Assembly (NCBI RefSeq): GCF_013283745.1
Contig: NZ_JABSTZ010000001.1
Coordinates: 948,406-1,012,405, forward strand
Length of the DNA stretch: 64,000 nt
DNA from: Aeromicrobium stalagmiti
GTDB taxonomy: Bacteria; Actinomycetota; Actinomycetes; Propionibacteriales; Nocardioidaceae
Direction: 5' to 3'
Under the pieces are notes generated by a model. It saw only the letters and a list, made by a program, of their open reading frames with translations, had not been told where the DNA came from and did not search any database. Made by a program: the position numbers and the translations under genes. This document shows, in pieces, positions 49,095 to 61,171 of this stretch. Every line of letters starts with the position of its first letter. Position 1 is the stretch's first letter.

Positions 49095-49421
49095 TCAGGC
49101 CGTGGCGTCCTCGACGCTCCCGAAGACCTGGAAGACGTCCTCCATGCCGGTGATCGTCAGCACGCGGTGCACGGCCGGGTTGGCGCCGGCGAGGCGGAAG
49201 TCGCCCTCGTCGCGCGTCATCTGCCAGCCGCTGACGAGCGCTCCGAGGCCGGACGAGTCCATGAACTCGACGTCGGAGAGGTCGATGACGAGCTTGGACG
49301 TGGGATCGGCGCGGTCGACGATGTGGGCGCGCAGGTCGCGGGCGGTCTCGATGTCGATGTCGCCGGCCAGCGCGACGACGTGGAAGTCGCCGGCGGAGCG
49401 GTCCGAGATGGAAAGGGTCAT
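49095..49421 (-). CDS. STAS-domain anti-sigma factor antagonist
   Basis: The 108-residue protein is a full single STAS domain: ALAGDIDIETARDLRAHI, LVIDLSDVEFMDSSGLGALV and a final helix. The DSSG motif holds the phosphorylatable serine (Ser57) that in SpoIIAA/RsbV is phosphorylated by the anti-sigma kinase and dephosphorylated by a PP2C phosphatase. Unphosphorylated, it binds the anti-sigma factor and frees the sigma factor. Its ATG overlaps the stop of the phytochrome-PP2C gene (ATGA), making that phosphatase the obvious partner. No RsbW-type kinase is encoded in the window. Confidence 0.93.
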   Translation of the reverse strand: MTLSISDRSAGDFHVVALAGDIDIETARDLRAHIVDRADPTSKLVIDLSDVEFMDSSGLGALVSGWQMTRDEGDFRLAGANPAVHRVLTITGMEDVFQVFGSVEDATA

Positions 49422-51709
49422 GAGGTGGCTCCTGTCGTGCGGAGTGCGACGATCGTGAGGTCGTCGTCGAGGGTCCCGGGGACGGCCGTCAGGAGGTCGT
49501 CGATCCAGGTGTCGAGAGTGCGGGTGTGGTCGGTCGTGACGGCGGCGCGGCGGAAGCGCTCGATCGAGGTGTCGATCTCGACGCCCCGGCGCTCGACCAG
49601 GCCGTCGGTGTACATCAGCAGGACGTCTCCGGGGGCGAGCACGAGCTCGTCGGTGCGCGCCTGCCCGTGGGCCACGCCGAGCAGCGGGCGTCCCGCGGTC
49701 GGCAGCGCCTCGCAGGCGCCGTCGTGCAGCAGCAGCGGCGGCGGGTGGCCGGCGTTGGCGACCTCCACGCGTCCGGTGGTCGGGTCGACCGCGGCCACCA
49801 CGACGGTGGCCGTCTGGCCCGGCAGCAGCGACTGCACGAGCACGTCGAGACGGTCGAGGCAGGCCGCAGGGGAGTGGCCGTCGATCATGTACGCCCGCAG
49901 GGCCGTGCGGACCTGCGCCATCGCGGTGGCGGCAGAGACGCCGTGGCCCGCGACGTCGCCGACGGCGAGGACGACCCGTCCGTCGGACAGCGGGAACGCG
50001 TCCCACCAGTCACCGCCGAGCTGGCTGCCCTTGGCGGGGCGGTAGCGCGAGAGCACGTCGATGCCGGCGAACTCCGGGGCCTCGTCGAGCACGACGGCGC
50101 GCTGCAGCGACTCGGCGATCGCGGTGTGCTCGTGGCTGCGCCGCAGCAGCTCGCTCGCCAGGTGCTGGCGCAGGTTCTCGACCATGCTGAGCTGCCACGC
50201 GTGCCAGGGCGCGCTCTGGCCGCGGACGACCTGCTGCCACTTCTCGAACGACTTGCGGGGGCTGAGGCGGACCGAGGGGTCCTCGGCGGCGGCGAGCGCC
50301 TTGTTGGTGGGGTCGCCGCCCCAGTCGACGGTCTTCTCGATCTCGGGGCGCAGCCACATCATCCAGCGGTCGGGGCCGTTGCCGATGTGCACGGCACCCG
50401 CGGCCACGTGAGCCGCGTCCGCGAGCTCGGGAGCGAGGCCGGCGAGGTGGCTCGTCGACGTGACGTGGCCGTCGGCCGAGCCGAGGTGGCGGGCGATGAC
50501 GTGCAGGGTGGACTCGTCGGGCACGTCGCCCACGGTCAGCAGGCGGCCGTCGACCCACAGGGCGGCGCCCCGGGCGTCGATCAGGTCGAGCAGCCCGGGG
50601 TGGGCGAACAGCGCGTCGTAGACGGGCCGCGGGTCGGCCGCGAGTGCCGCGGTGAGGCGGGCCAGCACGACGCTGGCCCGCAGCTCGTCGGTGTGGCTGT
50701 CGGCGCGCTCGCGGTCGTCGATGAGCTGGGACGCGGTCTGGCCGAGGAACTCCGCGGCGGAGCGGGCATCGAACGGCACCCGGAGCGGTCCGGAGTAGTG
50801 GTGGCAGGCCACGAGGCCCCAGAGCAGCCCGTCCTTGACCATCGACACCGACATCGACGCCGAGACGCCCATGTTGGACAGGTACTCGACGTGGATCGGC
50901 GAGACGCTGCGCAGCACCGAGTGCGACAGGTCGAGCGGCGCCCCGGTGGACGGGTCGAGCACGGGGTCGAGCGCGACGGGCTCGTAGAGGACGTCGGCGA
51001 TGAGCCGGGTCCAGTTGACGGTGTAGAGCCGGCGCGCCTGGGCCGGGATGTCGGTCGCCGGGTAGTGCAGCCCCAGGAACGGGTTGAGGTCGTCGCGCCG
51101 TTCCTCGGCGACGACCTCGCCGTTCCAGGCCTCGTCGAAGCGATAGACCATGACCCGGTCGAACCCGGTGATCCGGCGGATCTCCCGGGCGAGCTGCTGG
51201 CACAGCTCGGCGGTCGTCGACGACTCGGTCAGGCGGGTCACGGCCGCTCGGGCCGACCGGTACGAGACGGTCTGCGAGGTCTGGGGCGCGGCGACCGGCT
51301 CGAGCTCGACGACGGTGCGGCTGCCCGAGCGGTGGACGATCAGGTCGACCTCGGCGGCGCCGAGCTGGCCGAGGTTGGGCGCGATGGTGACCGGGATGGG
51401 TGCCGAGAGGTCGCCGTTGGCCAGGGCCTGGGCGATCGCGGTGGCCGGTCCGGCCCCCAGCACCTCGCGGACGTCGAGGCCGAGCAGGTCGCGCGTCGGT
51501 CGGCCGATCAGCTGGGCGGTGTTGCGCGAGGCCATCACGATGCGGCGCTGCTCGTCGAGCGCGAGGAGCAGCCCGTGCGGCTGGATGGCGCCGGGAATGT
51601 GGATCGGCTCCTGCTCACAGTTGGTGAGATCGGGAGCCGAGTAGGCCGGGGTGTGGTCGAGTCGACCGAGGGCGTCGGAGGTCAAGGCGCAACTTTCTAC
51701 AGGTGTCAC
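49418..51709 (-). CDS. Bacteriophytochrome with PP2C (SpoIIE-type) phosphatase output
   Basis: Numbering is from the GTG at 51709 (763 residues). Order: PAS with the biliverdin-binding Cys31 in CEQEPIHIPGAIQPHG; GAF with PATDIPAQARRLY (DIP at 220-222) and the chromophore histidines in SPIH (273) and CHH (303); PHY with the tongue motifs WGG (463) and PRKSF (484-488). A SpoIIE-like PP2C phosphatase follows from about 530: GSQLGGDWWD, VGDVAGHG and DDDLTIVAL with metal Asp567, Asp585 and Asp749. The usual histidine kinase is absent. Red/far-red light should control dephosphorylation of the STAS protein encoded by the overlapping gene. Start uncertain: TTG at 51724 or 51685 is possible. Confidence 0.93.
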   Translation of the reverse strand: MTPVESCALTSDALGRLDHTPAYSAPDLTNCEQEPIHIPGAIQPHGLLLALDEQRRIVMASRNTAQLIGRPTRDLLGLDVREVLGAGPATAIAQALANGDLSAPIPVTIAPNLGQLGAAEVDLIVHRSGSRTVVELEPVAAPQTSQTVSYRSARAAVTRLTESSTTAELCQQLAREIRRITGFDRVMVYRFDEAWNGEVVAEERRDDLNPFLGLHYPATDIPAQARRLYTVNWTRLIADVLYEPVALDPVLDPSTGAPLDLSHSVLRSVSPIHVEYLSNMGVSASMSVSMVKDGLLWGLVACHHYSGPLRVPFDARSAAEFLGQTASQLIDDRERADSHTDELRASVVLARLTAALAADPRPVYDALFAHPGLLDLIDARGAALWVDGRLLTVGDVPDESTLHVIARHLGSADGHVTSTSHLAGLAPELADAAHVAAGAVHIGNGPDRWMMWLRPEIEKTVDWGGDPTNKALAAAEDPSVRLSPRKSFEKWQQVVRGQSAPWHAWQLSMVENLRQHLASELLRRSHEHTAIAESLQRAVVLDEAPEFAGIDVLSRYRPAKGSQLGGDWWDAFPLSDGRVVLAVGDVAGHGVSAATAMAQVRTALRAYMIDGHSPAACLDRLDVLVQSLLPGQTATVVVAAVDPTTGRVEVANAGHPPPLLLHDGACEALPTAGRPLLGVAHGQARTDELVLAPGDVLLMYTDGLVERRGVEIDTSIERFRRAAVTTDHTRTLDTWIDDLLTAVPGTLDDDLTIVALRTTGATS

Positions 51710-51795
51710 CGCCTGGCTGCACAACCGGTGGTCGTCAGCATATCCACTCGGCGAGCCGCCTGCTGAGAGCGATCGAGTCTGAGCGCCGACTCCGT

Positions 51796-51801
51796 TATGG
51801 T
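51796..51801 (+). promoter_or_regulatory. -10 hexamer of leaderless PAS-PP2C gene
   Basis: TATGGT is followed by six bases (TCGGGC) and the ATG at 51808. It lies in the short divergent gap shared with the phytochrome gene. Confidence 0.55.
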
Positions 51802-51807
51802 TCGGGC

Positions 51808-53010
51808 ATGGACGTCACGCACGAAGACTTCTTCGACGAGGCCCCGTGCGGATGTGTCGAGCTCGACGCCGACGGTGTCGTCATCGCCGCCAACCGCCGA
51901 TTCCTGGCGCTGGTCGACCGTTCGTCCGCCGACGTCGTGGGCTCGTCGTCGTTCGCCACCCTCGTGGCGGCCGCCGACCGGAGCCGGCTCGAGGCGCTCC
52001 TGCGACAGGACGAGCAGGCCGGCGGCGAGACGACCGGGACCGCCGTGTCGCTGGTGCGCCCCGACGGCAGCCTCGTCCGGGTGCTGCTGAGCGCCAGCTG
52101 CCGCACCGTCGGCGGCGCTGTCACGACGCGGGTCGTCGTCCTGCCCTCCGGCAGCGAGCAGGCGCCCGCCGAGGAGCACACCGCCTCGCTGGTCAAGGCC
52201 CTGCAGCGCACCTTCGTGCCGGCGATGGTCACCGACGTCCCGGGTCTCGAGGTCGCAGGCGCCCATCGTCCGGCCGGTGACGGCACCGAGATCGGCGGCG
52301 ACTTCTACGACGTCTTCCAGATCCGCTCCGGCGAGTGGGTCGTCGTGGTCGGTGACGTCTCCGGCAAGGGCGTCGAGGCCGCGGTGCTGACGACGTACGT
52401 CCGTCACGCCGTGCGGGCCCTTGCCGTCCAGAACGACTCGCCCGCCGGGGTCCTGAGGGCCCTCAACACCCTGCTGCTCGCGCACGGCAGTGAACGGTTC
52501 TGCACCGTCGCGATCCTGCGGCTGCTCAAGGAGGACGACCACTGGCTGGCGACCGTCAGCTCCGGCGGACATCCGTTGCCGCTGCTCGTCGCCTCCGAGG
52601 GAGCCGTCGCCGAGGTCGGCACCCCCGGCTCGCTCATCGGCATGCTGTCGACGGTGCAGCTCGACGACGGCCGAACCACGATCGGCCCGGGGGACCGGGT
52701 CGTCCTCTACACCGACGGCGTCACCGAGGCCAGGCGCGACTCCGAGCCCTTCGGCATCGACCGGCTCATGTCACTCACGTCCGGCGACGCGTTGTCGGCA
52801 GACGAGACGACGGCCGCGGTGCTCGACCGGGTCCTGGAGTTCCAGGACGGCCAGGCCCGCGACGACATCGCGATCGTGACGGTTCGGGTGCTCGAGCCCG
52901 CAGAGGCCGAAGCAGGCGGGGCAGGGCAGGCGCCGACCGCTCCGCTCGACGCCGAGGCCAGGAACCGTGCCCTGATCGCCCTCCAGCAGGCCGAGTCAGA
53001 CGCGGAGTGA
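51808..53010 (+). CDS. PAS-domain PP2C (SpoIIE/RsbU-type) phosphatase
   Basis: The 400-residue cytoplasmic protein has a PAS domain (about 5-112: FFDEAPCGCVELDADGVVIA) and a PP2C phosphatase domain (about 140-362). The metal-binding motifs are complete: EIGGDFYDVF (Asp165), VGDVSGKG (Asp183) and RDDIAIVTV (Asp352, Asp353). Such proteins dephosphorylate STAS antagonists in response to the PAS ligand. It diverges from the phytochrome-PP2C gene, so two phosphatases with different sensors may act on one STAS protein. A 40-residue acidic/Ala tail follows. It converges with the ligase gene, with stops one base apart. Confidence 0.92.
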   Translation: MDVTHEDFFDEAPCGCVELDADGVVIAANRRFLALVDRSSADVVGSSSFATLVAAADRSRLEALLRQDEQAGGETTGTAVSLVRPDGSLVRVLLSASCRTVGGAVTTRVVVLPSGSEQAPAEEHTASLVKALQRTFVPAMVTDVPGLEVAGAHRPAGDGTEIGGDFYDVFQIRSGEWVVVVGDVSGKGVEAAVLTTYVRHAVRALAVQNDSPAGVLRALNTLLLAHGSERFCTVAILRLLKEDDHWLATVSSGGHPLPLLVASEGAVAEVGTPGSLIGMLSTVQLDDGRTTIGPGDRVVLYTDGVTEARRDSEPFGIDRLMSLTSGDALSADETTAAVLDRVLEFQDGQARDDIAIVTVRVLEPAEAEAGGAGQAPTAPLDAEARNRALIALQQAESDAE

Positions 53011-53011
53011 C

Positions 53012-53986
53012 TCAGCTGCGACCGGTCTCGGTCGCCAGCAGCTCGGGTCGCACGCGCACGAGCGCCAGGGGCTGGTGCCACGGGTCGTCCAGCGACGAGT
53101 CGATCGCGATCTCGACGACGGTGCCGGGATGCACGAGGTGGACGGTCTCGCGCTCCTGCGCAGGCCAGCCGGGGACGTCGCCCGGAGCGAGGTCCGACCA
53201 CGGGTGGTCGTCGTGCGGGCGTTCCAGGTGGGCGCCCAGGCGCCGGCTCTGCGGGAGGGTGAGCTCGGTCGTGCAGCCGACGATCTCGACGGTGCCGTCG
53301 GCGCCGGCCCGACCGAGGACGAGACGACACGGCGCACGCAACGACCCGGTGACGGCGCCGACGACGCAGGTCACGGCGTCGCGGATGCGGAGCGTCGACC
53401 AGCCTCGCTCGCCCGACTCGTACGTCGTGGCGAGGCCCTTGGCGACGACTCCCTCGACGCCGACGTGCGCCTCGGCATAGCTGACCATCCACTGGCTCGC
53501 CTCGTGGAAGTCGCGCGTCTGCGGCACGACGTGCAACGGAGCGGGGAGGTCGTCCATCAGGATCGTGAGGGCCTGGCGTCGCACCCGGAACGGGCTGTTG
53601 CGCATGTCCATGCCCGCGCCGGCCAGCACGTCGAACGCGATCAACGACGCGGGGTGTGACGCCATCAGGTCGTCGGGGACGTCGCCGTCGAGCCGGCGCT
53701 GCAGCTCGGTCGCGTCAGACGCGTCGTCGCCCCACACGACGATCTCGCCGTCGAGCACGACGCCTGACGGCAGGCACTCGATCGCCGCCGAGACGATGTC
53801 GGGGAACGACGCGGTGATGTCGCGGCCGTGCCGTGACTGGATGCGGCACCAGCCGTCCTGGACGAAGACCAAGGCCCGATAGCCGTCGAACTTCGGCTCG
53901 TAGACCGTGCCACCCGGCAGGGCGTCCTCGTCGGGGAGGGCGTGCACCGTCCGCGCGAGCATCGGCTCCTGCGGATACGGCAACAC
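53012..53986 (-). CDS. ATP-dependent DNA ligase, small LigC/LigD-ligase type
   Basis: The 324-residue enzyme has an adenylation domain with motif I EPKFDGYRAL (adenylated Lys), III VLDGEIVVW, IIIa LIAFDVLA and IV VEGVVAKGL, then an OB-fold region ending in VEIAIDSSL. Motif V, usually KxK, reads WSTLRIRD, so both lysines appear as arginines. The GTG at 53986 is taken because GTGGAG lies six bases upstream. It seals nicks, probably in end joining, since the nearby LigD-like protein has no ligase domain and Ku is 5 kb away. Confidence 0.85.
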   Translation of the reverse strand: MLPYPQEPMLARTVHALPDEDALPGGTVYEPKFDGYRALVFVQDGWCRIQSRHGRDITASFPDIVSAAIECLPSGVVLDGEIVVWGDDASDATELQRRLDGDVPDDLMASHPASLIAFDVLAGAGMDMRNSPFRVRRQALTILMDDLPAPLHVVPQTRDFHEASQWMVSYAEAHVGVEGVVAKGLATTYESGERGWSTLRIRDAVTCVVGAVTGSLRAPCRLVLGRAGADGTVEIVGCTTELTLPQSRRLGAHLERPHDDHPWSDLAPGDVPGWPAQERETVHLVHPGTVVEIAIDSSLDDPWHQPLALVRVRPELLATETGRS

Positions 53987-54171
53987 GGAGAACTCCACTT
54001 CCTGGGCCCGATCGGAGAAAGACTGTCGTCGAGGAGTCTGCCACCGTTGACGGGAGTGGTGATGGTTCGTCCTGATCTGGCGTGGCTGCGTCAGCTTCAC
54101 GGTATCCCCTCTCACTGCAGGAGGAGTACCCAACAGTCCGCGGCGCAACCCGTCAGTCGGGTCGGGTCACC

Positions 54172-54552
54172 TCAGTGGGCGCAGGTCATGCACAGGGTCG
54201 CGCGTGGGAACGCCTCCAGCCGGGGCCGGGCGATCTCGCCGGAGCACGACTCGCAGACGCCGTAGAGACCGGCCGACAGGCGGTCGAGCACGTGCTGGGT
54301 CTGGGCCAGGATCGCGGCGACGTTCTCGGCCTGCACGGCGTCCTGCAGCAGCTCGGAGCGCTGCGACGCGAGGTCGAGCTCGTCGTGGAGGACGTCGAGC
54401 GTCGAGGCCGAGGCGGCGGCACCGAGGTCGCTGTCGACGACCATGAGCTCGGCCTGCAGGCGGGTGACGGCGGTCTCGAGCCCTTCGCGGACGGCGTCCA
54501 GCTCGGCGGCGGACCAGGCGGACGGGGCGGTGCGTTGCAGCTCGGCAGTCAT
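54172..54552 (-). CDS. TraR/DksA-type C4 zinc-finger protein
   Basis: The 126-residue protein has a helical N-terminal hairpin and a C-terminal zinc finger, CESC...CMTC (17 residues between pairs), followed by AH. This fits DksA/TraR proteins that bind the RNA polymerase secondary channel. The usual coiled-coil tip acidic motif is not obvious. GAGGTG stands about six bases before the ATG. It lies just downstream of a hairpin that separates it from the preceding gene. A role as stress transcription factor is inferred. Confidence 0.85.
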   Translation of the reverse strand: MTAELQRTAPSAWSAAELDAVREGLETAVTRLQAELMVVDSDLGAAASASTLDVLHDELDLASQRSELLQDAVQAENVAAILAQTQHVLDRLSAGLYGVCESCSGEIARPRLEAFPRATLCMTCAH

Positions 54553-54561
54553 GAGACACCT

Positions 54562-54609
54562 CGGGGTCGGGCGGAGAAAGGTGAAGTGCCTTTACCCCGC
54601 CCGACCCCG
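54562..54609 (-). terminator. Nested 13-bp stem hairpin
   Basis: CGGGGTCGGGCGG (54562-54574) pairs exactly with CCGCCCGACCCCG (54597-54609). AAAGG and CCTTT inside the loop can extend the structure. It follows the stop at 54624 on the minus strand. Confidence 0.7.
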
Positions 54610-54623
54610 GGCAATCGTGCGCG

Positions 54624-55187
54624 TCAGGACTTTTTCGTCGGCGCCTTCTCGGCGGCCGCCGCCGCCTCGTCGAGCACGTCGGCAGCCGTCGGCACGTCGG
54701 TGGGCGCCGGGGCGGCCTCCGGTGCGGGCGGGGCGGCAGCGGCGGGCGCCGGTGCCGGTGCCGGCGGCGGGGTCGGCGGCACGTACGCGGCCGGTGCATC
54801 GTCCTTGCGCTTGAGCACCGCGAAGGCGGCCGCTCCGGCACCGGTCAGGACGCCGACGGCGGCGATCCGGCGCAGGCGCTTGCGCTTGGGCTTGACCTTC
54901 TCGGGCAGCTTCTCCTGGACGTTGTCGGGGAGACGGTCGAACAGGTCGTCGCGCAGGTCGAGCAGCTGGTCCTTGTCGGGCAGCGCCGCGACGATCTGGT
55001 CACGGACCACGGGGGCCCGGTCGGCGACGTGCTGGCGCAGCCCACCGGCCTGCTCCACGATCTGGTCGCGCACGCCCGGGGCGCGCTCGACGACCTGCTT
55101 GCGCAGCTCGTCGGTCTGCTCCACGAGGTCGCTCAGCTGAGTCTCGAGCTTGTCGCGCAGCGTCTTCTTCTTGAAAGGCCTGGCCAT
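54624..55187 (-). CDS. Single-pass membrane protein with amphipathic repeats and Pro/Ala tail
   Basis: The 187-residue protein starts with basic ARPFKKKTLRDKLETQ. It contains three related helical units (VVERAPGVRDQIV, GGLRQHVADR, APVVRDQIVAAL) with heptad character and a KPKRKRLRRI patch. A hydrophobic helix (AAVGVLTGAGAAAFAVL) follows, then a 50-residue Pro/Ala tail ending ADVLDEAAAAAEKAP. GAGGAG lies about nine bases before the ATG at 55187. The repeats resemble apolipoprotein or YtxH-like stress proteins, but I recognise no family with confidence. Confidence 0.7.
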   Translation of the reverse strand: MARPFKKKTLRDKLETQLSDLVEQTDELRKQVVERAPGVRDQIVEQAGGLRQHVADRAPVVRDQIVAALPDKDQLLDLRDDLFDRLPDNVQEKLPEKVKPKRKRLRRIAAVGVLTGAGAAAFAVLKRKDDAPAAYVPPTPPPAPAPAPAAAAPPAPEAAPAPTDVPTAADVLDEAAAAAEKAPTKKS

Positions 55188-55218
55188 GTGCTTGCTCCTC
55201 TTCATCGGTCGTGCCTGC

Positions 55219-56601
55219 TCAGGTGATCTTCATCCGGTGGATGAGCCACTGGTTCTTGTTGGTGTGGATCAGTGCGTACTTGCGGCGGCCGCCGAGCCCG
55301 CCCTTCTTCGTGCCGGTGAGCGTGGCGATGATCTCTCGACCCTTCCACTTCTCGAGCTCGTACGTGCCGTGGTCCCAGATGGTGACCCTGCCACCTCCAT
55401 ACTCCCCCTTCGGGATGGTGCCCTCGAAGGAGCCGTAGGAGAGGGGGTGGTCCTCGGTCTGCACCGCAAGATGATTCTTCGCCGTGGTGGTCGGGACGCC
55501 CTTGGGCAGGGCCCACGAGACCAGCACGCCGTCGTGCTCGAGCCGGAAGTCCCAGTGCAGGCTGCTCGCGTGGTGCTCCTGGATCACAAAGGAGCGACCG
55601 TCCGACGGCTCGGGCGCGTCGTCCGGCACCGGCTCGGGGGTCTTGGCGCCGTCGCGCTTGGACCGGTAGGTCGCGAGCCGGTCTCCGGCACCGTCGGCCG
55701 GCTCGGCCGCGTGGTCGGCGAGATCGGCCATCGGGTCCTTGCGCCGCTTCATGCGCGCCAGCACCTCGTCGAGCGTCAGGTGCGTCAGGTCGTCGTTCAT
55801 CTCCCGCCACGTGCGGGGGACGGCGACGCGTGGCTCGACGGTGCCGCGCAGCGAGTAGGGGGCGACGGTCGTCTTGCTGCCGTTGTTCTGGCTCCAGTCG
55901 ACGAGCACCTTGCCGTGGCGCTCGCTCTTGCGCATCGAGCTGACGACGAGGTCGGGCAGCTCGGACTCCAGCGCCTGCGCGACCTGCTTGGCGAAGGCGT
56001 TGATGTAGTCGGAGTCGTGCGAGCCGTCCAGCGGGGCGTAGAGGTGGATGCCCTTGCTGCCGCTGGTGACGGGGCAGGTCGTCAGGCCGAGGTCGCCGAG
56101 CAGCTTCTTGGCCCGCTTGGCGACGGCGACGCACTCGGGCAGGCCCGTGCCGGGCCCCGGGTCGAGGTCGAGCACGAAGCGGTCGGGGTGCTGCGGTGTG
56201 CCGTGCCGGTCGACGCGCCACTGCGGCACGTGCAGCTCGAGCGCCGCCACCTGACCCGCCCATGCGAGCGCCGCGGCGTCGTCGAAGACCGGGTAGGTGT
56301 TGGCGTGGTCGCGGTGCTTGATCTCGACCCGTCGGATCCAGGACGGCGCCGAGTCGGGCAGGTTCTTCTCGAAGAACACGTCGCCCGGTGTGCGGGCCGT
56401 GCCGACGCCGTCGACCCAGCGCTTGCGGGTCACGATGCGGCCGGCCACGTGCGGGAGCAGGTAGGGCGCGATCTGCTGGTAGTAGGCGATGACGTCGGCC
56501 TTGGTGGTGCCGGTCGACGGGTAGAGCACCTTGTCGGGGTGCGTCAGGCGCAGGCGGTGCCCGGAGACCGACACGGTGTCGGGGGCGCTGCTGCGGGCCA
56601 T
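55219..56601 (-). CDS. LigD-like polymerase/3'-phosphoesterase without ligase domain
   Basis: The 460-residue protein has a LigD-type primase-polymerase domain (about 10-290) with FVLDLDPGPGTG (catalytic Asp145, Asp147), TSGSKGIHLYAPL and KVLVDWSQNN (Asp235). After a linker comes the 3'-phosphoesterase domain (about 335-460) with FVIQEHHASSLHWDFRLE and ALPKGVP, carrying the metal His/Asp residues. It processes broken DNA ends in Ku-dependent joining. In Mycobacterium LigD the order is POL-PE-ligase; here the protein ends after PE and a separate ligase is encoded 1.2 kb downstream. AGAGGA precedes the ATG at 56601. Confidence 0.92.
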   Translation of the reverse strand: MARSSAPDTVSVSGHRLRLTHPDKVLYPSTGTTKADVIAYYQQIAPYLLPHVAGRIVTRKRWVDGVGTARTPGDVFFEKNLPDSAPSWIRRVEIKHRDHANTYPVFDDAAALAWAGQVAALELHVPQWRVDRHGTPQHPDRFVLDLDPGPGTGLPECVAVAKRAKKLLGDLGLTTCPVTSGSKGIHLYAPLDGSHDSDYINAFAKQVAQALESELPDLVVSSMRKSERHGKVLVDWSQNNGSKTTVAPYSLRGTVEPRVAVPRTWREMNDDLTHLTLDEVLARMKRRKDPMADLADHAAEPADGAGDRLATYRSKRDGAKTPEPVPDDAPEPSDGRSFVIQEHHASSLHWDFRLEHDGVLVSWALPKGVPTTTAKNHLAVQTEDHPLSYGSFEGTIPKGEYGGGRVTIWDHGTYELEKWKGREIIATLTGTKKGGLGGRRKYALIHTNKNQWLIHRMKIT

Positions 56602-56719
56602 GGAGTCCTCTCGCCGCCGGGGACGTCCCGGATCGCGTGGGAGCGTCGTACCCGTCGCGAGGTCACCGAAACCCGGGTCGCCGAGGCAATCGCGAGGTGA
56701 ATAGTCCCTCCGAACTAGG

Positions 56720-56731
56720 TGAACTAGTTCA
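56720..56731. promoter_or_regulatory. 12-bp perfect palindrome between sigma factor and POL-PE genes
   Basis: TGAACTAGTTCA is a perfect palindrome in the 233-bp divergent intergenic region, with a half-site CGAACTAGG eight bases upstream. It differs from a LexA box in spacing. It could be an operator for either gene. Confidence 0.45.
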
Positions 56732-56834
56732 TCCTCACCGCGACGGGCTTGCCATGCAGGGTCGAACAGTGCCATGCTCGAATGGTCGGTTGAGCAGTTA
56801 GCCGCACGTGGTTCTAGACCCTTAGGGGGTCGTC

Positions 56835-57641
56835 ATGAACATTGCTCCCGCAACATCCAGCATCTCCACGAACGTCTCGTCGGCGCTGTCCTCGACCGAG
56901 TCGGACGACACGTCAGCGCTCATCGAGGCCGCCGCGAAGGCCGGTCCGGCCGAGCGTGCAGCCCTCGAGGACGAGGTCGTTCGTCGTCATCTCGGCCTGG
57001 CCCGGCACCTCGCCGGCCGCTATGCCGGTCGAGGCATCGACCGCGAGGACCTGGTGCAGGTCGCCAACTTCGCGCTCGTGAAGTCGATCCGCGGATTTCA
57101 CCACGACCGGGGCGAGTTCGTCCCGTTCGCCACGGTGACGATCCTCGGCGAGATCAAGAAGTACTTCCGCGACCACGGTTGGGGGGTGCGTCCTCCGCGG
57201 CGCATCCAGCAGCTGCAGGCCGACATCTCCGCCGCGTCCGAGCGCATCTTCCACGCCGAGGGTCACGCACCCGACGCCGCCGAGATCGCCAAGGAGCTCG
57301 GCGCTGACCGGGCTGACGTCGACGAGGCCATGGCGGCCCGTGGATGCTTCTCGCCGACGTCGCTCGACCAGCCGGTCCGCGACGGCGGGCAGCCGCTCGG
57401 CGAGACGATCCGGTGGGACGAGTCGGCATACTCGTTCATCGACGACTGGGTCACGGTCGGCCCGCTCTGCGAGGGTCTGGAGGACGATGAGCGCGAGCTG
57501 CTCCGCCTCCGGTTCGTCGAGGACCGCACCCAGCAGGAGATCGCCGACCTGGTCGGCGTGAGCCAGATGCAGGTGTCGCGCCGTCTCGCCAAGCTGCTCG
57601 AGCAGCTGCGCACCAAGGCGGCCGTCGAGGACGTCGCCTAG
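56835..57641 (+). CDS. RNA polymerase sigma factor, SigB/SigF family
   Basis: The 268-residue protein has a Ser/Thr-rich N-terminus, then region 2 (RHLAGRYAGRGIDREDLVQV, GFHHDRGEFVPFATVTILGE, IKKYFRDHGWGVRPPRRIQQ), region 3 and a region 4 helix-turn-helix (RTQQEIADLVGVSQMQVSRR). The IKKYFRD-WxVRxPR pattern is diagnostic of stress/sporulation sigma factors controlled by partner switching. The matching phosphatases and STAS protein are encoded at 49.1-53.0 kb, but no anti-sigma kinase adjoins it, unlike classical rsb operons. GGGGG lies before the ATG. Confidence 0.93.
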   Translation: MNIAPATSSISTNVSSALSSTESDDTSALIEAAAKAGPAERAALEDEVVRRHLGLARHLAGRYAGRGIDREDLVQVANFALVKSIRGFHHDRGEFVPFATVTILGEIKKYFRDHGWGVRPPRRIQQLQADISAASERIFHAEGHAPDAAEIAKELGADRADVDEAMAARGCFSPTSLDQPVRDGGQPLGETIRWDESAYSFIDDWVTVGPLCEGLEDDERELLRLRFVEDRTQQEIADLVGVSQMQVSRRLAKLLEQLRTKAAVEDVA

Positions 57642-57655
57642 CCGGCACCCCTTCC

Positions 57656-57697
57656 ACGCAGCAGGTCCCGGGCGGGTGCGCCCGGGGCCTGCTGCGT
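57656..57697 (+). terminator. 18-bp stem hairpin after the sigma factor gene
   Basis: ACGCAGCAGGTCCCGGGC (57656-57673) pairs with GCCCGGGGCCTGCTGCGT (57680-57697), one G-U pair, six-base loop. It begins 14 bases past the stop. No long T tract follows. Confidence 0.75.
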
Positions 57698-57764
57698 TGG
57701 TAGGGTCCTGTCACCGGTTCAGCAGCAGCCGTTCGCTCTGCTGATCCGGAAAGGCCCTTCCCCG

Positions 57765-57989
57765 ATGCCTCGCACCACCTTGGTGTTCAGCCTGAGCAGC
57801 AGCCAGGCCCAGCGTGACCTGCTCCACGAGTTCTCGCTCCACCGCGACCTCGACGCGACCGGCGAGGTCACGGCTGGCCTGCCGACGATCCAGGTCGTGG
57901 TCGGTGACGTCGCCACCCGGGTCTGGGAGGTGCGAGCGACCGTCGGGATGTTCGACGATGCCGCGACCGAGGTCGGTGGTCAGGCGTGA
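57765..57989 (+). CDS. Hypothetical small protein, 74 residues
   Basis: The protein reads as alternating strands and one helix (TTLVFSLSSSQAQRDLLHEF, then TIQVVVGDVATRVWEVRATV), suggestive of a small alpha/beta fold. GGAAAGG lies about ten bases before the ATG. The last ten bases overlap the convergent gene at 57980. Codon bias fits its neighbours. No family is recognised. Confidence 0.5.
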   Translation: MPRTTLVFSLSSSQAQRDLLHEFSLHRDLDATGEVTAGLPTIQVVVGDVATRVWEVRATVGMFDDAATEVGGQA

Positions 57990-58495
57990 CCGCGGTGGCG
58001 GCGCGGCTCGAAGGTCTGGGTCACGAACGACGGCGCGGACGTCCACGCCTCCTGGACTCCGACCTCGTCGGCGATCGTCGCCGCGAGGTCGCGGGGCGCC
58101 GGGGTCAGCTCTGCTGGCAGGACGCGGCGGGCCTCGTCGAGGCGCACCTCGAGCGGGGCGTGCCAGATGACCGAGACGTCGTGGTGCTCGCCGCACTGGC
58201 GGCACAGGTCCTGCAGGCGCTCGGTGGTGGCCGCGTCGGTAGGCGTCCCACACACGATGACCACGTGGCTGGCCGGTGCGTCCCGGCTCGCCAGGTCACG
58301 GATCGCCTGCTCGCCGGTCGTGGTGTCCAGGCGGATGACGGCGTGACTGACCGACGTCAACCAGCCGACCGGCGTCGTGACGGAGTGTGTGCTGCAGCCG
58401 CGCCGACCGAGCTCGGCGCTGAGCGCCTCGTCGAGTGCATCGCGCTCGCCGAACACGGTCACGGTGGGGCCGGAGAGGTGAAGGTCGGCGGTCAT
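57980..58495 (-). CDS. Hypothetical Rossmann-like protein, 171 residues
   Basis: The start TVTVFGERDALDEALSAELG and later strands HAVIRLDT, HVVIVCGTP and VSVIWHAP look like a short nucleotide-binding-type alpha/beta protein, without a full glycine-rich loop. AAGGAA stands before the ATG at 58495, which is preferred to the open frame reaching 58705. The family resemblance is to sugar-nucleotide dehydratase fragments, but this is weak. It may be regulated with the divergent GAF-ANTAR gene. Confidence 0.6.
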   Translation of the reverse strand: MTADLHLSGPTVTVFGERDALDEALSAELGRRGCSTHSVTTPVGWLTSVSHAVIRLDTTTGEQAIRDLASRDAPASHVVIVCGTPTDAATTERLQDLCRQCGEHHDVSVIWHAPLEVRLDEARRVLPAELTPAPRDLAATIADEVGVQEAWTSAPSFVTQTFEPRRHRGHA

Positions 58496-58671
58496 GCGTG
58501 CGTTCCTTCTGGTCGAGGTCCACGGCGGAGGGTGTCGCCGGTCGGGCGTATTGGTGTCCTTGCCGTACCCTGCCGTGCATCGGGCAAACGATCGGCCTAT
58601 CCTCACCTGTATTCCGACCGCGGGCCGTGGTTCTCGTGACCAGCGGCTCTGACTTCTGGAGGAGTGGATCC

Positions 58672-59385
58672 GTGGAGAGCTCGACCTTCTTCGCCCAGAT
58701 GGCACTCGACCTGCACGACGAGCCGACGGCCGAGCGCACGATCGAGCGCATCACGGAGTACGCCCAGCTGGCGACCAGCTGCGACGACGCCGGCATCATG
58801 CTCGTCCACGCCCGCAACCAGATCGAGACTGCGGCCGCCACCTCGCAGCGCGTGGGCGAGTCGCACAACCTGCAGATCGTCCACGACGAGGGACCGTGCC
58901 TCGACGCGATCGAGGGCGAGCCCCACTACCAGTCGCCCGACGTGAGCGCCGATCCGCGATGGACCAAGTGGGGGCCGGCCGTGGCCGAGCTCGGCATAGG
59001 CAGCGTGCTCAGCCTGCGGCTCGAGACGCGCTCGCGCCGCTACGGATCGCTCAACCTCTATGCCGATCGGGTCGAGGCCTTCGACGACGACGACCTCGCC
59101 GTCGCCACGATCTTCGTCCGGCACGCCTCCGTCGCCCTCGCCAACGCGCACAACGAGGAGGGCCTGCAGACCGCGATCGACGCACGCAAGCTCATCGGCC
59201 AGGCGCAGGGCATCCTCATGGAGCGGTTCAACATCGACGCCGACCGGGCCTTTGAGTTCCTGCGGCGCCAGTCGCAGACCCACAACGTCAAGCTGCGCTA
59301 CGTCGCGGAGTGGGTCGTCGACCACCGTGGATCGCCCGACGCCGTCTTCGCGGTCTCGGCATCGAGCGAGGTGCCCTCGACCTAG
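58672..59385 (+). CDS. GAF-ANTAR domain RNA-binding antiterminator
   Basis: The 237-residue cytoplasmic protein has a GAF domain (about 15-165, including VHDEGPCLDAIEGEPHYQSP) and a C-terminal ANTAR three-helix domain (about 168-222: LIGQAQGILMERFNIDADRA, FEFLRRQSQ). ANTAR domains bind paired RNA hairpins and prevent termination. The GAF ligand is unknown; no kinase is adjacent. GGAGGAG lies eight bases before the GTG at 58672. Its stop overlaps the Ku stop on the other strand, sharing CTAG. Confidence 0.9.
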   Translation: MESSTFFAQMALDLHDEPTAERTIERITEYAQLATSCDDAGIMLVHARNQIETAAATSQRVGESHNLQIVHDEGPCLDAIEGEPHYQSPDVSADPRWTKWGPAVAELGIGSVLSLRLETRSRRYGSLNLYADRVEAFDDDDLAVATIFVRHASVALANAHNEEGLQTAIDARKLIGQAQGILMERFNIDADRAFEFLRRQSQTHNVKLRYVAEWVVDHRGSPDAVFAVSASSEVPST

Positions 59386-60293
59386 CCGGTCTTGCGGGCC
59401 GCCCTCTTGGCAGGAGTCTTCTTGGCGGCGGGCTTCTTCTTCGCCGCCGTCTTCTTCGCGGGTGCCTTCTTGGTCCCCGCCTTCTTCGCCGCTGTCTTCT
59501 GGGTGGTGGCCGACTTCTTGCGGTCGAGGCTCTTTTTGAGCGCCTCCATCAGGTCGACCACCTCGGCGTCGTCGCCGTCCTCGGTCTCGCCGAACGTGGC
59601 GTCGGTGTCGAGGGCGTCGCCCTCCTTGATCTTGGCCTCGACCAGGGTCCGCAGCTGCTCCTGGTAGTCGTCGGTGAACGAGGCGCTGTCGAAGTCGCCG
59701 GCCAGCGAGTCGACGAGCTGCGCGGCCATGTCGCGCTCCTTCTGGCTGATGCGCGGCACCTGCTTCAGCACGTCGAACGCCGGAGCGCGGACCTCGTCGT
59801 CCCACAGCAGCGTCTGCAGGAGCAGGACGTCACCGCGCACACGCAGCGCCGCGAGTCGGGTCTTCTGGCGCAGGGCGAACCGGACGATCGCGGTGCGGTC
59901 GGAGTCCTCCAGCGCCCGGCGCAGCAGGGTGTACTGCTTGAGGGTCTTCTCCTCGGGCTCGAGGTAGTAGCTCTTGTCGAGGCGCAGCAGGTCGACCTGG
60001 CTCGCCGGGACGAACTCGACGACCTCGATCTCGTGGTTGCGCTCGGCCGGCAGGGACGCGAGGTCCTTGTCGGTGAGCACGACGGTCTGCTGGCCGTCGT
60101 CGTACGCCTTGTCGATGTCGCCGTAGTCGACGACCTTGCCGCACACCTCGCAGCGACGTTGATAGCGGATGCGACCGCCGTCCTTGGCGTGCACCTGGTG
60201 CAGGGGGACGTCGTGGCTCTCGGTCGCGCTGTAGACCTTGACCGGCACGCTCACCAGCCCGAAGCTGATCGCGCCCTTCCAGATGGACCTCAT
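59382..60293 (-). CDS. ku: Ku DNA end-binding protein
   Basis: The 303-residue protein begins MRSIWKGAISFGLVSVPVKV, the bacterial Ku signature, and has the zinc-like CEVCGK region, YYLEPEE and the ring-forming core up to about residue 250. The last 45 residues are an (A/P)KK-rich basic tail (KKAPAKKTAAKKKPAAKKT), as in mycobacterial Ku, that contacts DNA. Homodimeric Ku threads onto broken ends and recruits LigD activities, encoded here as separate proteins at 55219 and 53012. Upstream lie three palindromes that may control it. Confidence 0.95.
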   Translation of the reverse strand: MRSIWKGAISFGLVSVPVKVYSATESHDVPLHQVHAKDGGRIRYQRRCEVCGKVVDYGDIDKAYDDGQQTVVLTDKDLASLPAERNHEIEVVEFVPASQVDLLRLDKSYYLEPEEKTLKQYTLLRRALEDSDRTAIVRFALRQKTRLAALRVRGDVLLLQTLLWDDEVRAPAFDVLKQVPRISQKERDMAAQLVDSLAGDFDSASFTDDYQEQLRTLVEAKIKEGDALDTDATFGETEDGDDAEVVDLMEALKKSLDRKKSATTQKTAAKKAGTKKAPAKKTAAKKKPAAKKTPAKRAARKTG

Positions 60294-60334
60294 GCTCCAT
60301 TGGACCGCCGTCACCCCCACCCCGCACCTCGGGC

Positions 60335-60420
60335 GGTGGATTCGCCACCTTTTCGCGGGGCGCGGTGGATCCTCCACCGTACGAGCGCCGTCCGGCCCTG
60401 GGACGGTGGAGAATCCACCG
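60335..60420. promoter_or_regulatory. Three GGTGG-type palindromes upstream of ku
   Basis: GGTGG(ATTCG)CCACC at 60335-60349, CGGTGGA(TCC)TCCACCG at 60363-60379 and CGGTGGA(GAA)TCCACCG at 60404-60420 share the same half-site. Their centres are 29 and 41 bases apart, near whole helical turns. A repressor or activator array for ku is the simplest reading. Confidence 0.6.
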
Positions 60421-60433
60421 CGCCGGGGTGGGG

Positions 60434-61171
60434 TCAGCGCAGGAAGAAGCGGCGGCGCCGTGCGGGGGACGGGGCGGCCGGCTTGGCGATCTCGACGAAC
60501 CCCGGGTCGTACGGCTCGAGGCCTGCGGCGATGCGGGGTCGCAGCTGGGCCGCCGCCGCGGCCGGGTCGTCGTAGGGGATGCCGCTCAGCTGGTTGGGGG
60601 AGTGGCGCCACCACTGCAGGTCGAGCAGCTCGGCGCGCAGGTCGTCGTCGACGCGGGAGCGGATGACCTTGGCGGGCATGCCGCCGGCGATCGAGTAGGG
60701 CGGGATGTCCTTGGTGACGACGGCGTTGGCCGCGACGATCGAGCCGTCGCCGATCGAGACGCCGCGCAGGACGACGACGTTGGCGCCGATCCATACGTCG
60801 TTGCCGATCGTGGCGAGGTCGCCGGCGACGCTGCGGAACGACTGGCGTCCGCCCGCCTCGGGGTCGACGACCTCGGTGTCGTCGGCCGAGGGGTGCCAGC
60901 CCCACGTGGCCTTCTTGTACTGGAACGCCGAGACGCTGAGCCACGACGTCGGGTGACCCGTCGCGCCGATCAGGCTGCCGGGGCCGATCTCGCAGTAGCG
61001 GCCGAACGTGGCGGCCTGCACCTCGACCTCGCGGCCGAACTCGGTGAACGCGCCGATGCGGGTGTCGGCGCGGATGACGAACGGGCCGAGGAACCGCACC
61101 GGCGGCTCGACGATCAGGCGTGACGAGCCGATGCGCTGCACGTGATGTGCGCCGCGGGTGTGCTCGTCCAC
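60434..61171 (-). CDS. Left-handed beta-helix acetyltransferase (CatB/xenobiotic type)
   Basis: The 245-residue protein has hexapeptide repeats (TRIGAFTEFGREVEVQAATF, CEIGPGSLIGATGHPTSWLS) and, after a loop, IGNDVWIGANVVVLRGVSIG with PYSIAGGMPAKVIRSR. This is the layout of CatB-like and Vat-like acetyltransferases that use acetyl-CoA and act as trimers. A drug substrate should not be assumed. AGGAGGAACG immediately precedes the GTG at 61171. It is transcribed towards ku. Confidence 0.85.
   Translation of the reverse strand: MDEHTRGAHHVQRIGSSRLIVEPPVRFLGPFVIRADTRIGAFTEFGREVEVQAATFGRYCEIGPGSLIGATGHPTSWLSVSAFQYKKATWGWHPSADDTEVVDPEAGGRQSFRSVAGDLATIGNDVWIGANVVVLRGVSIGDGSIVAANAVVTKDIPPYSIAGGMPAKVIRSRVDDDLRAELLDLQWWRHSPNQLSGIPYDDPAAAAAQLRPRIAAGLEPYDPGFVEIAKPAAPSPARRRRFFLR

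Follow-up and report, generated by a model that had tools for sequence, protein, structure and literature searches.

The systems closest to the genes considered here are the RsbP/RsbU-RsbV-RsbW-SigB partner switch of Bacillus subtilis, the bacteriophytochromes with a phosphatase output and the light inputs described for SigB-type stress responses. In the B. subtilis switch, activation of RsbU involves flexible linkers that form a coiled coil and dimerise the PPM phosphatase domains (PMC12143880). Bacteriophytochromes with a SpoIIE/PPM-type output appear as a class in a distance tree (PMC9587094), in agreement with an earlier reading of the present DNA made from its letters alone (the sequence-only reading), which took such PP2C-output phytochromes to be already known. 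The stretch analysed here (the window) comprises 64 kb of Aeromicrobium stalagmiti (C1:948406-1012405 in a 3.68 Mb genome). It harbors a bacteriophytochrome that ends in a PP2C phosphatase (phytochrome-PP2C) and, directly downstream, a gene for a STAS anti-anti-sigma protein. Judged from gene order and conservation, it is likely that the phytochrome acts on this STAS protein, and the pair is proposed as the light input of a partner switch.

The proposed system resembles the B. subtilis SigB switch in its sensor-linked PP2C phosphatases, STAS protein with a DS motif, RsbW-type kinases, SigB/F-type sigma factor and helical linker between sensor and phosphatase. It differs in having a full bacteriophytochrome as its sensor and in its scattered genes, with phosphatase and STAS forming a two-gene unit of their own. 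The SpoIIE/PPM-output phytochromes of PMC9587094 have the same PAS-GAF-PHY-PP2C order as the window protein; the paper treats diguanylate cyclases, and its available sections describe no substrate or genome context for the phosphatase type. Red light activates SigB in B. subtilis and Listeria, RsbP/Q being needed in B. subtilis; according to the sections of that study available, no phytochrome was found in these genomes and the red-light receptor was left open, with only RsbP proposed in Bacillus (PMC3019169). The present system would likewise lead from red light to a SigB-type sigma factor, but here the phytochrome itself carries the phosphatase. Light also enters STAS/PP2C stress cascades through the LOV-STAS proteins YtvA and Lmo0799 and through LOV-SpoIIE proteins; unlike the window protein, these use a blue-light flavin sensor, and YtvA works within the stressosome (PMC3019169, PMC4844311). 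The photocobilins are bilin photoreceptors for which a connection with STAS and SpoIIE proteins has been predicted in Saccharothrix; they differ in binding both B12 and bilin, in being connected by a predicted interaction network only and in not being phytochrome-PP2C fusions (PMC10979010). A search of the open-access literature, with subscription journals and preprints outside its scope, found nothing, among the matches listed, on a link of phytochrome-SpoIIE proteins to STAS or RsbW, which is weak evidence of absence. The new part is partner switching with a phytochrome input, phytochrome-SpoIIE fusions being already in print.

The features of the two-gene unit are as follows.
49418..51685, minus strand: bacteriophytochrome with PP2C (SpoIIE/PPM) output, 755 amino acids (Pfam PAS_2, GAF, PHY and SpoIIE; 71-row alignment)
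51617..51619, minus strand: codon of Cys23, at which biliverdin is expected to bind (Cys in 68 of 71 rows, a gap in the other three)
49436..49987, minus strand: PP2C phosphatase domain (SpoIIE match; catalytic Asp residues in 71 of 71 homologs)
50093..50200, minus strand: continuous linker helix, residues 496-531, from PHY to PP2C (AlphaFold2 model; fixed spacing)
49095..49421, minus strand: STAS anti-anti-sigma protein, 108 amino acids (Pfam STAS, 5.9e-21; TIGR00377 above cut-off)
49254..49256, minus strand: Ser56 in DSSG, the predicted phosphorylation site (aligned with RsbV and a SpoIIAA)

The phytochrome-PP2C reading frame is open from TTG 51724 and ends with a stop codon at 49418-49420; the likeliest start is TTG 51685, with GTG 51709 and TTG 51724 as alternatives. 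Pfam analysis showed a complete PAS-GAF-PHY-PP2C order (PAS_2, 1.2e-24; GAF, 1.5e-15; PHY, 2.1e-41; SpoIIE, 1.8e-46). In the 755-residue numbering the chromophore region retains Cys23, DIP at 212-214, His265, His295, WGG at 455-457 and PRKSF at 476-480, and the phosphatase retains Asp559, Asp577, Asp694 and Asp742; the pigment- and metal-binding residues are expected to be among these. Alignment of 71 homologs showed DIP in 70 rows (one gap) and PRxSF in all. The earlier statement that a phytochrome with intact chromophore residues carries a PP2C output is thus upheld by both the domain search and the alignment. The PAS-GAF-PHY module, N-terminal Cys, DIP, GAF His and PRxSF tongue place the sensor among the bacteriophytochromes, and the PP2C domain with its metal-binding Asp residues places the output in the SpoIIE/RsbU/RsbP type. 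The protein scores 364 bits against the NCBIfam BphP equivalog model, below its cut-off of 1040 bits, with 4-511 of the 622 model positions matched. The AlphaFold2 model (mean predicted local distance difference test score, 87.7) has phytochrome structures as its best Foldseek matches and joins PHY to PP2C by a single helix (residues 496-531). The spacing from the PHY tongue to the GGDWW motif of the phosphatase was 82 residues in 51 of 51 proteins (the window protein and 50 of the 80 named loci); in a second set it was 82 residues in 67 of 71 and 81 in the remaining four. This near-constant spacing contrasts with the several linker lengths reported for phytochrome diguanylate cyclases (PMC9587094).

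The ATG of the STAS gene at 49421 overlaps the TGA of the phytochrome gene by four nucleotides (ATGA), as the earlier reading had stated. The protein consists of a single STAS domain with a phosphoacceptor Ser and scores above the cut-off of TIGR00377 (anti-sigma factor antagonist), and so belongs to the anti-anti-sigma factors of the RsbV/SpoIIAA/BldG type. The DSSG motif named in that reading is present; its assignment of the site to Ser57 is to be corrected to Ser56, according to both the alignment with RsbV and SpoIIAA and conservation, the first Ser being kept in 50 of 50 aligned STAS rows and the second position being variable. In RsbV and SpoIIAA it is the first Ser that becomes phosphorylated.

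Phytochrome-PP2C loci were collected (153 loci, reduced to 118 by collapsing identical C-termini); the 118 still include close relatives and are therefore not independent. The full-length protein occurs in at least 70 of 294 family genomes (including a split gene in G149 and two copies in G289) and in at least two further genomes of a 396-genome phylum sample, both counts being lower bounds as only the best three and best two candidates per genome, respectively, were scored. Among the best 80 loci of a scan with one genome per species, all of which carry both parts by profile, were Aeromicrobium, Nocardioides, Kineococcus, Motilibacter, Cellulomonas, Isoptericola, Cellulosimicrobium, Sanguibacter, Georgenia, Blastococcus, Geodermatophilus, Frankia, Mycolicibacterium and others.

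Within three genes of phytochrome-PP2C, STAS was found at 37 of the 118 loci, a stand-alone RsbW-type kinase at 21 (all of them also with STAS) and heme oxygenase at 21; at least one of the three was present at 55. STAS labels fell on 40 of 459 genes at positions 1-2 versus one of 726 at position 4 or beyond. Neighbouring genes came from a simple codon-usage gene caller, so that starts and small genes may be wrong (e.g., the STAS start in L054), and their labels were spot-checked with Pfam on examples. As the profiles for STAS, RsbW and heme oxygenase had been built partly from phytochrome-linked neighbours, the count was repeated with control profiles made only from genes unlinked to phytochrome-PP2C; STAS again gave 40/459 near versus 1/726 far (37 loci), and RsbW gave 17/459 versus 0/726 (18 loci). 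RsbW labels on proteins of at least 200 amino acids (286-327) were excluded from the locus counts as another family; they comprise all six far (position 4 or beyond) RsbW labels of the initial profile count. The near-far difference, which is the same with the unlinked-gene profile, shows that the adjacency of STAS and phytochrome is not due to chance. The linkage of STAS and RsbW stands after the recount, and that of heme oxygenase has a weaker basis. The heme oxygenase count leans on a second group, identified as such through two related genes: its profile did not align to the first group and one member had no Pfam match, but it was counted because a relative in L246 matches HemO (3.3e-7) and Pfam heme oxygenase above the cut-off, and one in L232 falls just below.

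The arrangements vary among genera. In Aeromicrobium the phytochrome is followed by STAS with the four-nucleotide overlap, and in some Nocardioides phytochrome, STAS and RsbW are consecutive. Other family members have STAS and RsbW together with a facing STAS upstream, some with heme oxygenase nearby; Isoptericola and Cellulosimicrobium have convergent RsbW-STAS, Sanguibacter has STAS and RsbW, and in some Blastococcus, Geodermatophilus and Frankia a heme oxygenase gene overlaps the phytochrome start. All three partners lie within three genes of the phytochrome in L105, L110 and L166, the heme oxygenase of L166 being counted on profile alone.

As controls, a STAS gene or STAS-containing protein was found within three genes of four of 14 PP2Cs with other sensors (L321, L325, L327, L334); around phytochromes with kinase or GGDEF output, STAS was found at none of six and heme oxygenase at one of six (outputs assigned by reading; L319 is cut by a contig end). 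These sets are too small to test a difference from 37/118. That the STAS pairing is special to phytochromes was not borne out, and the control set, though small, is compatible with STAS coming with the phosphatase. The sequence-only reading had singled out the operonic pairing as the notable part; as STAS also adjoins PP2Cs with other sensors, it is the phytochrome input that is special. As a separate observation, three large genomes of the same class (L315, L316, L317) have, on the opposite strand and one or two genes from a kinase-output phytochrome, a separate PP2C gene.

Within Aeromicrobium, phytochrome-PP2C is present in 19 of 49 genomes (split in G149), and STAS lies directly downstream in 11 of the 19, with the four-nucleotide overlap in ten. 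Orthologs of this STAS (at least 52% identity and 95 bits) were found in 13 of the 49 genomes, namely, these 11 together with G163 and G165; all 13 adjoin the phytochrome or a decayed remnant of it and none was found elsewhere. The next STAS match, in G167 (44% identity, 81 bits), is unlinked. In the fragmented genomes G163 and G165, short phytochrome remnants directly precede an intact STAS gene with DSSG (L309:6237-7134; L310:5836-6551); either the sensor is lost ahead of its partner or these are assembly errors.

In the 64-kb window neither an RsbW-type kinase nor a heme oxygenase was found, as the earlier reading had noted, and a search of the rest of the genome for RsbW-like kinases and bphO, which it had called for, gave RsbW-type kinases and a heme oxygenase. 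Three small stand-alone kinases (C1:922572, C1:228767, C12:614470) are candidates for the cognate HATPase_c_2 kinase, which is unlinked in the window and linked in 21 of the 118 homologous loci. The N-box Glu and Asn of RsbW-type kinases are kept in 24 of 24 aligned rows; the kinase and STAS conservation alignments include the three kinases of this genome and two STAS rows from decayed loci. Seven SpoIIE and six STAS matches were counted genome-wide. The single heme oxygenase (1.1e-49) lies beside apparent heme-uptake genes, named by reading their sequences.

Kinase A (C1:922572; L117:8167-8562) has a counterpart of at least 60% identity in 47 of the 49 genus genomes, G147 having one of 43% and the incomplete G171 none; being near-universal, it could not be singled out as the partner of the phytochrome by co-occurrence. 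Genes resembling a second kinase, kinase B, were found by reading of search results in 14 of the 19 phytochrome-positive genomes versus one of the 30 negative ones (G147). The 14 comprise 11 matches of at least 110 bits, G074, G080 and a partial match in G149; weak matches (∼20-38 bits) to longer proteins, including PP2C-HATPase fusions, were left out. A kinase-B-like domain is fused to PP2C in G063 and G124. The partner may be kinase A, the patchy kinase B or the third kinase, all being candidates only. In the two closest relatives (L298, L299) the kinase-B-like domain forms the C-terminus of a PP2C fusion of ∼1040 amino acids, and in the window genome it stands alone. The kinase at C12:614470 belongs to an operon (C12:614470-618417; L118:7471-11418) encoding a GAF-PP2C, a cellulose-synthase-like glycosyltransferase, STAS and the RsbW-type kinase, which, from its gene content, may be a partner switch for polysaccharide rather than for a sigma factor.

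The window also contains a candidate output gene.
56835..57641, plus strand: SigB/F-type sigma factor (TIGR02980, 2.7e-57, 195 bits)

This confirms the SigB/SigF-type sigma factor that had been placed about 4 kb away. SigB/F/G is its best model, although the score lies below the curated TIGR02980 cut-off of 234 bits. It is the only clear SigB/F-type sigma factor of the genome, the next matches scoring 130 and 107 bits and being 26-31% identical to it. The link of the phytochrome to this sigma factor is plausible owing to this uniqueness.

The following course of signalling is proposed. The phytochrome would bind biliverdin at Cys23 and photoconvert between red- and far-red-absorbing forms; the signal would pass via the PHY tongue and the uninterrupted, fixed-length helix to the PP2C domains at the C-termini of a presumed dimer. 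Light would raise or lower the phosphatase activity, most likely by a change of helix register or dimer geometry in view of the fixed spacing, the continuous helix and the RsbU linker precedent. The PP2C domain would then remove phosphate from Ser56 of the STAS protein encoded by the next gene, and the unphosphorylated STAS protein would bind an anti-sigma kinase of the RsbW type whose gene lies elsewhere in the genome. The kinase so bound would let go of its sigma factor, for which the single SigB/F-type one encoded 4 kb away is the likeliest candidate. As a whole, this chain is considered the best explanation and a reasonably probable one; for output through the SigB/F-type sigma factor in particular, the gene content tips the balance only slightly in favor. 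The claim that light sets the phosphorylation of the STAS protein and so the activity of a stress sigma factor is thus partly supported. Its STAS step gains strength from the recurrent gene linkage (to STAS and RsbW, partly also to heme oxygenase), from the conserved residues and from the STAS ortholog having been found only beside the phytochrome; its sigma step is plausible. For Actinomycetota at large, the case is evenly poised that the phytochrome itself is the partner-switch phosphatase of a widespread red/far-red stress switch, running from heme oxygenase as the source of the pigment through phytochrome-PP2C and STAS with RsbW to a SigB/F-type sigma factor without histidine kinase or response regulator.

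Several observations weigh against this proposal. At 63 of the 118 loci none of STAS, RsbW and heme oxygenase lies within three genes. With the unlinked-gene profile heme oxygenase gave 3/459 near versus 2/726 far (five loci only), the count being low because this one-sequence profile misses the second heme oxygenase group; in the window genome itself the heme oxygenase gene is not beside the phytochrome. An adjacent STAS is missing in eight of the 19 phytochrome-bearing Aeromicrobium genomes (G130, G094, G100, G103, G136, G083, G074, G167), and G130 (L052), whose phytochrome is 74% identical to that of the window, has neither a STAS ortholog nor a kinase-B-like gene. Once relatedness is considered, the association of kinase B with the phytochrome is only suggestive: on a rough quick tree, about 4.4 of six independent pairs pointed the same way, 0.4 the other way and 1.2 showed no difference, which was not significant (median p 0.125). 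The test for heptad periodicity in the linker was not significant either (p 0.20). A SigF-like promoter upstream of the phytochrome was found at none of the 118 loci; shuffles lead one to expect 0.1-0.9 loci and the search had no positive control, giving it little power.

The strongest alternative concerns the output. The phytochrome might act on STAS and the pair feed a target other than a SigB/F-type sigma factor, e.g., through a non-sigma kinase partner. This would suit the occurrence of close sigma orthologs in relatives without the phytochrome (e.g., G106, G109, G112, G115, G142), a further point against the proposal. It would also suit G118, G145, G155 and G161, which have kinase A (identity of at least 60%) and no SigB/F-type sigma match, and the C12 operon, which suggests a non-sigma switch in the same genome. 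It is nevertheless regarded as rather unlikely, as the distance between the phytochrome and the single SigB/F-type sigma gene is 2-6 kb in the window and in six close relatives (all one clade) and no other output gene was seen linked to the phytochrome.

Another alternative concerns the input. If the sensor had no chromophore in vivo, or served temperature or redox sensing, with a constitutive phosphatase, the distant location of the heme oxygenase gene beside apparent heme-uptake genes and the decay of the phytochrome before an intact STAS in two fragmented genomes would be accounted for. Such a role appears improbable given the near-invariant Cys23, DIP and PRxSF residues, the heme oxygenase in the genome and its presence within three genes of the phytochrome at 21 of 118 loci. 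The STAS protein might instead be mainly a substrate of a second phosphatase in the window, the phytochrome having another one.
51808..53010, plus strand: PAS-PP2C phosphatase, RsbP-like, divergent from the phytochrome (Pfam SpoIIE and PAS)

In the window, L047, L048 and L052 the two phosphatase genes are direct or near neighbours. However, STAS follows the phytochrome without a PAS-PP2C gene within four genes in L049-L051 and L053-L056, and L052 keeps PAS-PP2C and RsbQ in a genome without a STAS ortholog, which makes this assignment the most improbable of those weighed. The phytochrome as phosphatase of the STAS protein, with light as its signal and the SigB/F-type sigma factor as output, remains preferred.

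If this holds, light would reach a general stress sigma factor directly through a phytochrome, non-photosynthetic actinobacteria would set their stress physiology by red and far-red light, and a one-step light-controlled phosphatase would be at hand for cell engineering. A phytochrome-regulated Ser/Thr phosphatase becomes testable with a defined substrate, and the near-constant 82-residue spacing provides a defined object for asking how shared sensors drive PPM phosphatases.

The divergent PAS-PP2C gene starts at ATG 51808, and its coordinates and Pfam matches agree with the earlier description. It would provide an RsbP-like second input. It is considered RsbP-like because its counterparts in L047, L052 and L312 overlap an alpha/beta hydrolase (RsbQ-like) gene; among solved structures, B. 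subtilis RsbQ is the closest to the L047 hydrolase (6.9e-86). The arrangement of rsbQ next to rsbP that marks an RsbQ-RsbP energy module is thus present in these three loci and absent in the window genome, where the best match to RsbQ has 26% identity (27% in G063), too distant for an ortholog. From these comparisons the window protein is best described as RsbP-like by descent and not as part of a complete RsbQP module. The phytochrome-free genome G153 (L312) shares this neighbourhood of RsbQ-RsbP, LigD and sigma genes, so that RsbP beside the sigma gene likely predates the phytochrome there; the second input through PAS that had been predicted is accordingly kept, probably as an older one.

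The sigma gene sits 3.8 kb past the end of the PAS-PP2C gene, and a split set of non-homologous end joining genes surrounds it (53012-60944 of the window). ATP-dependent DNA ligase, LigD polymerase/phosphoesterase and Ku are encoded by separate genes there, with the genes for the sigma factor and for a GAF-ANTAR regulator lying in between.

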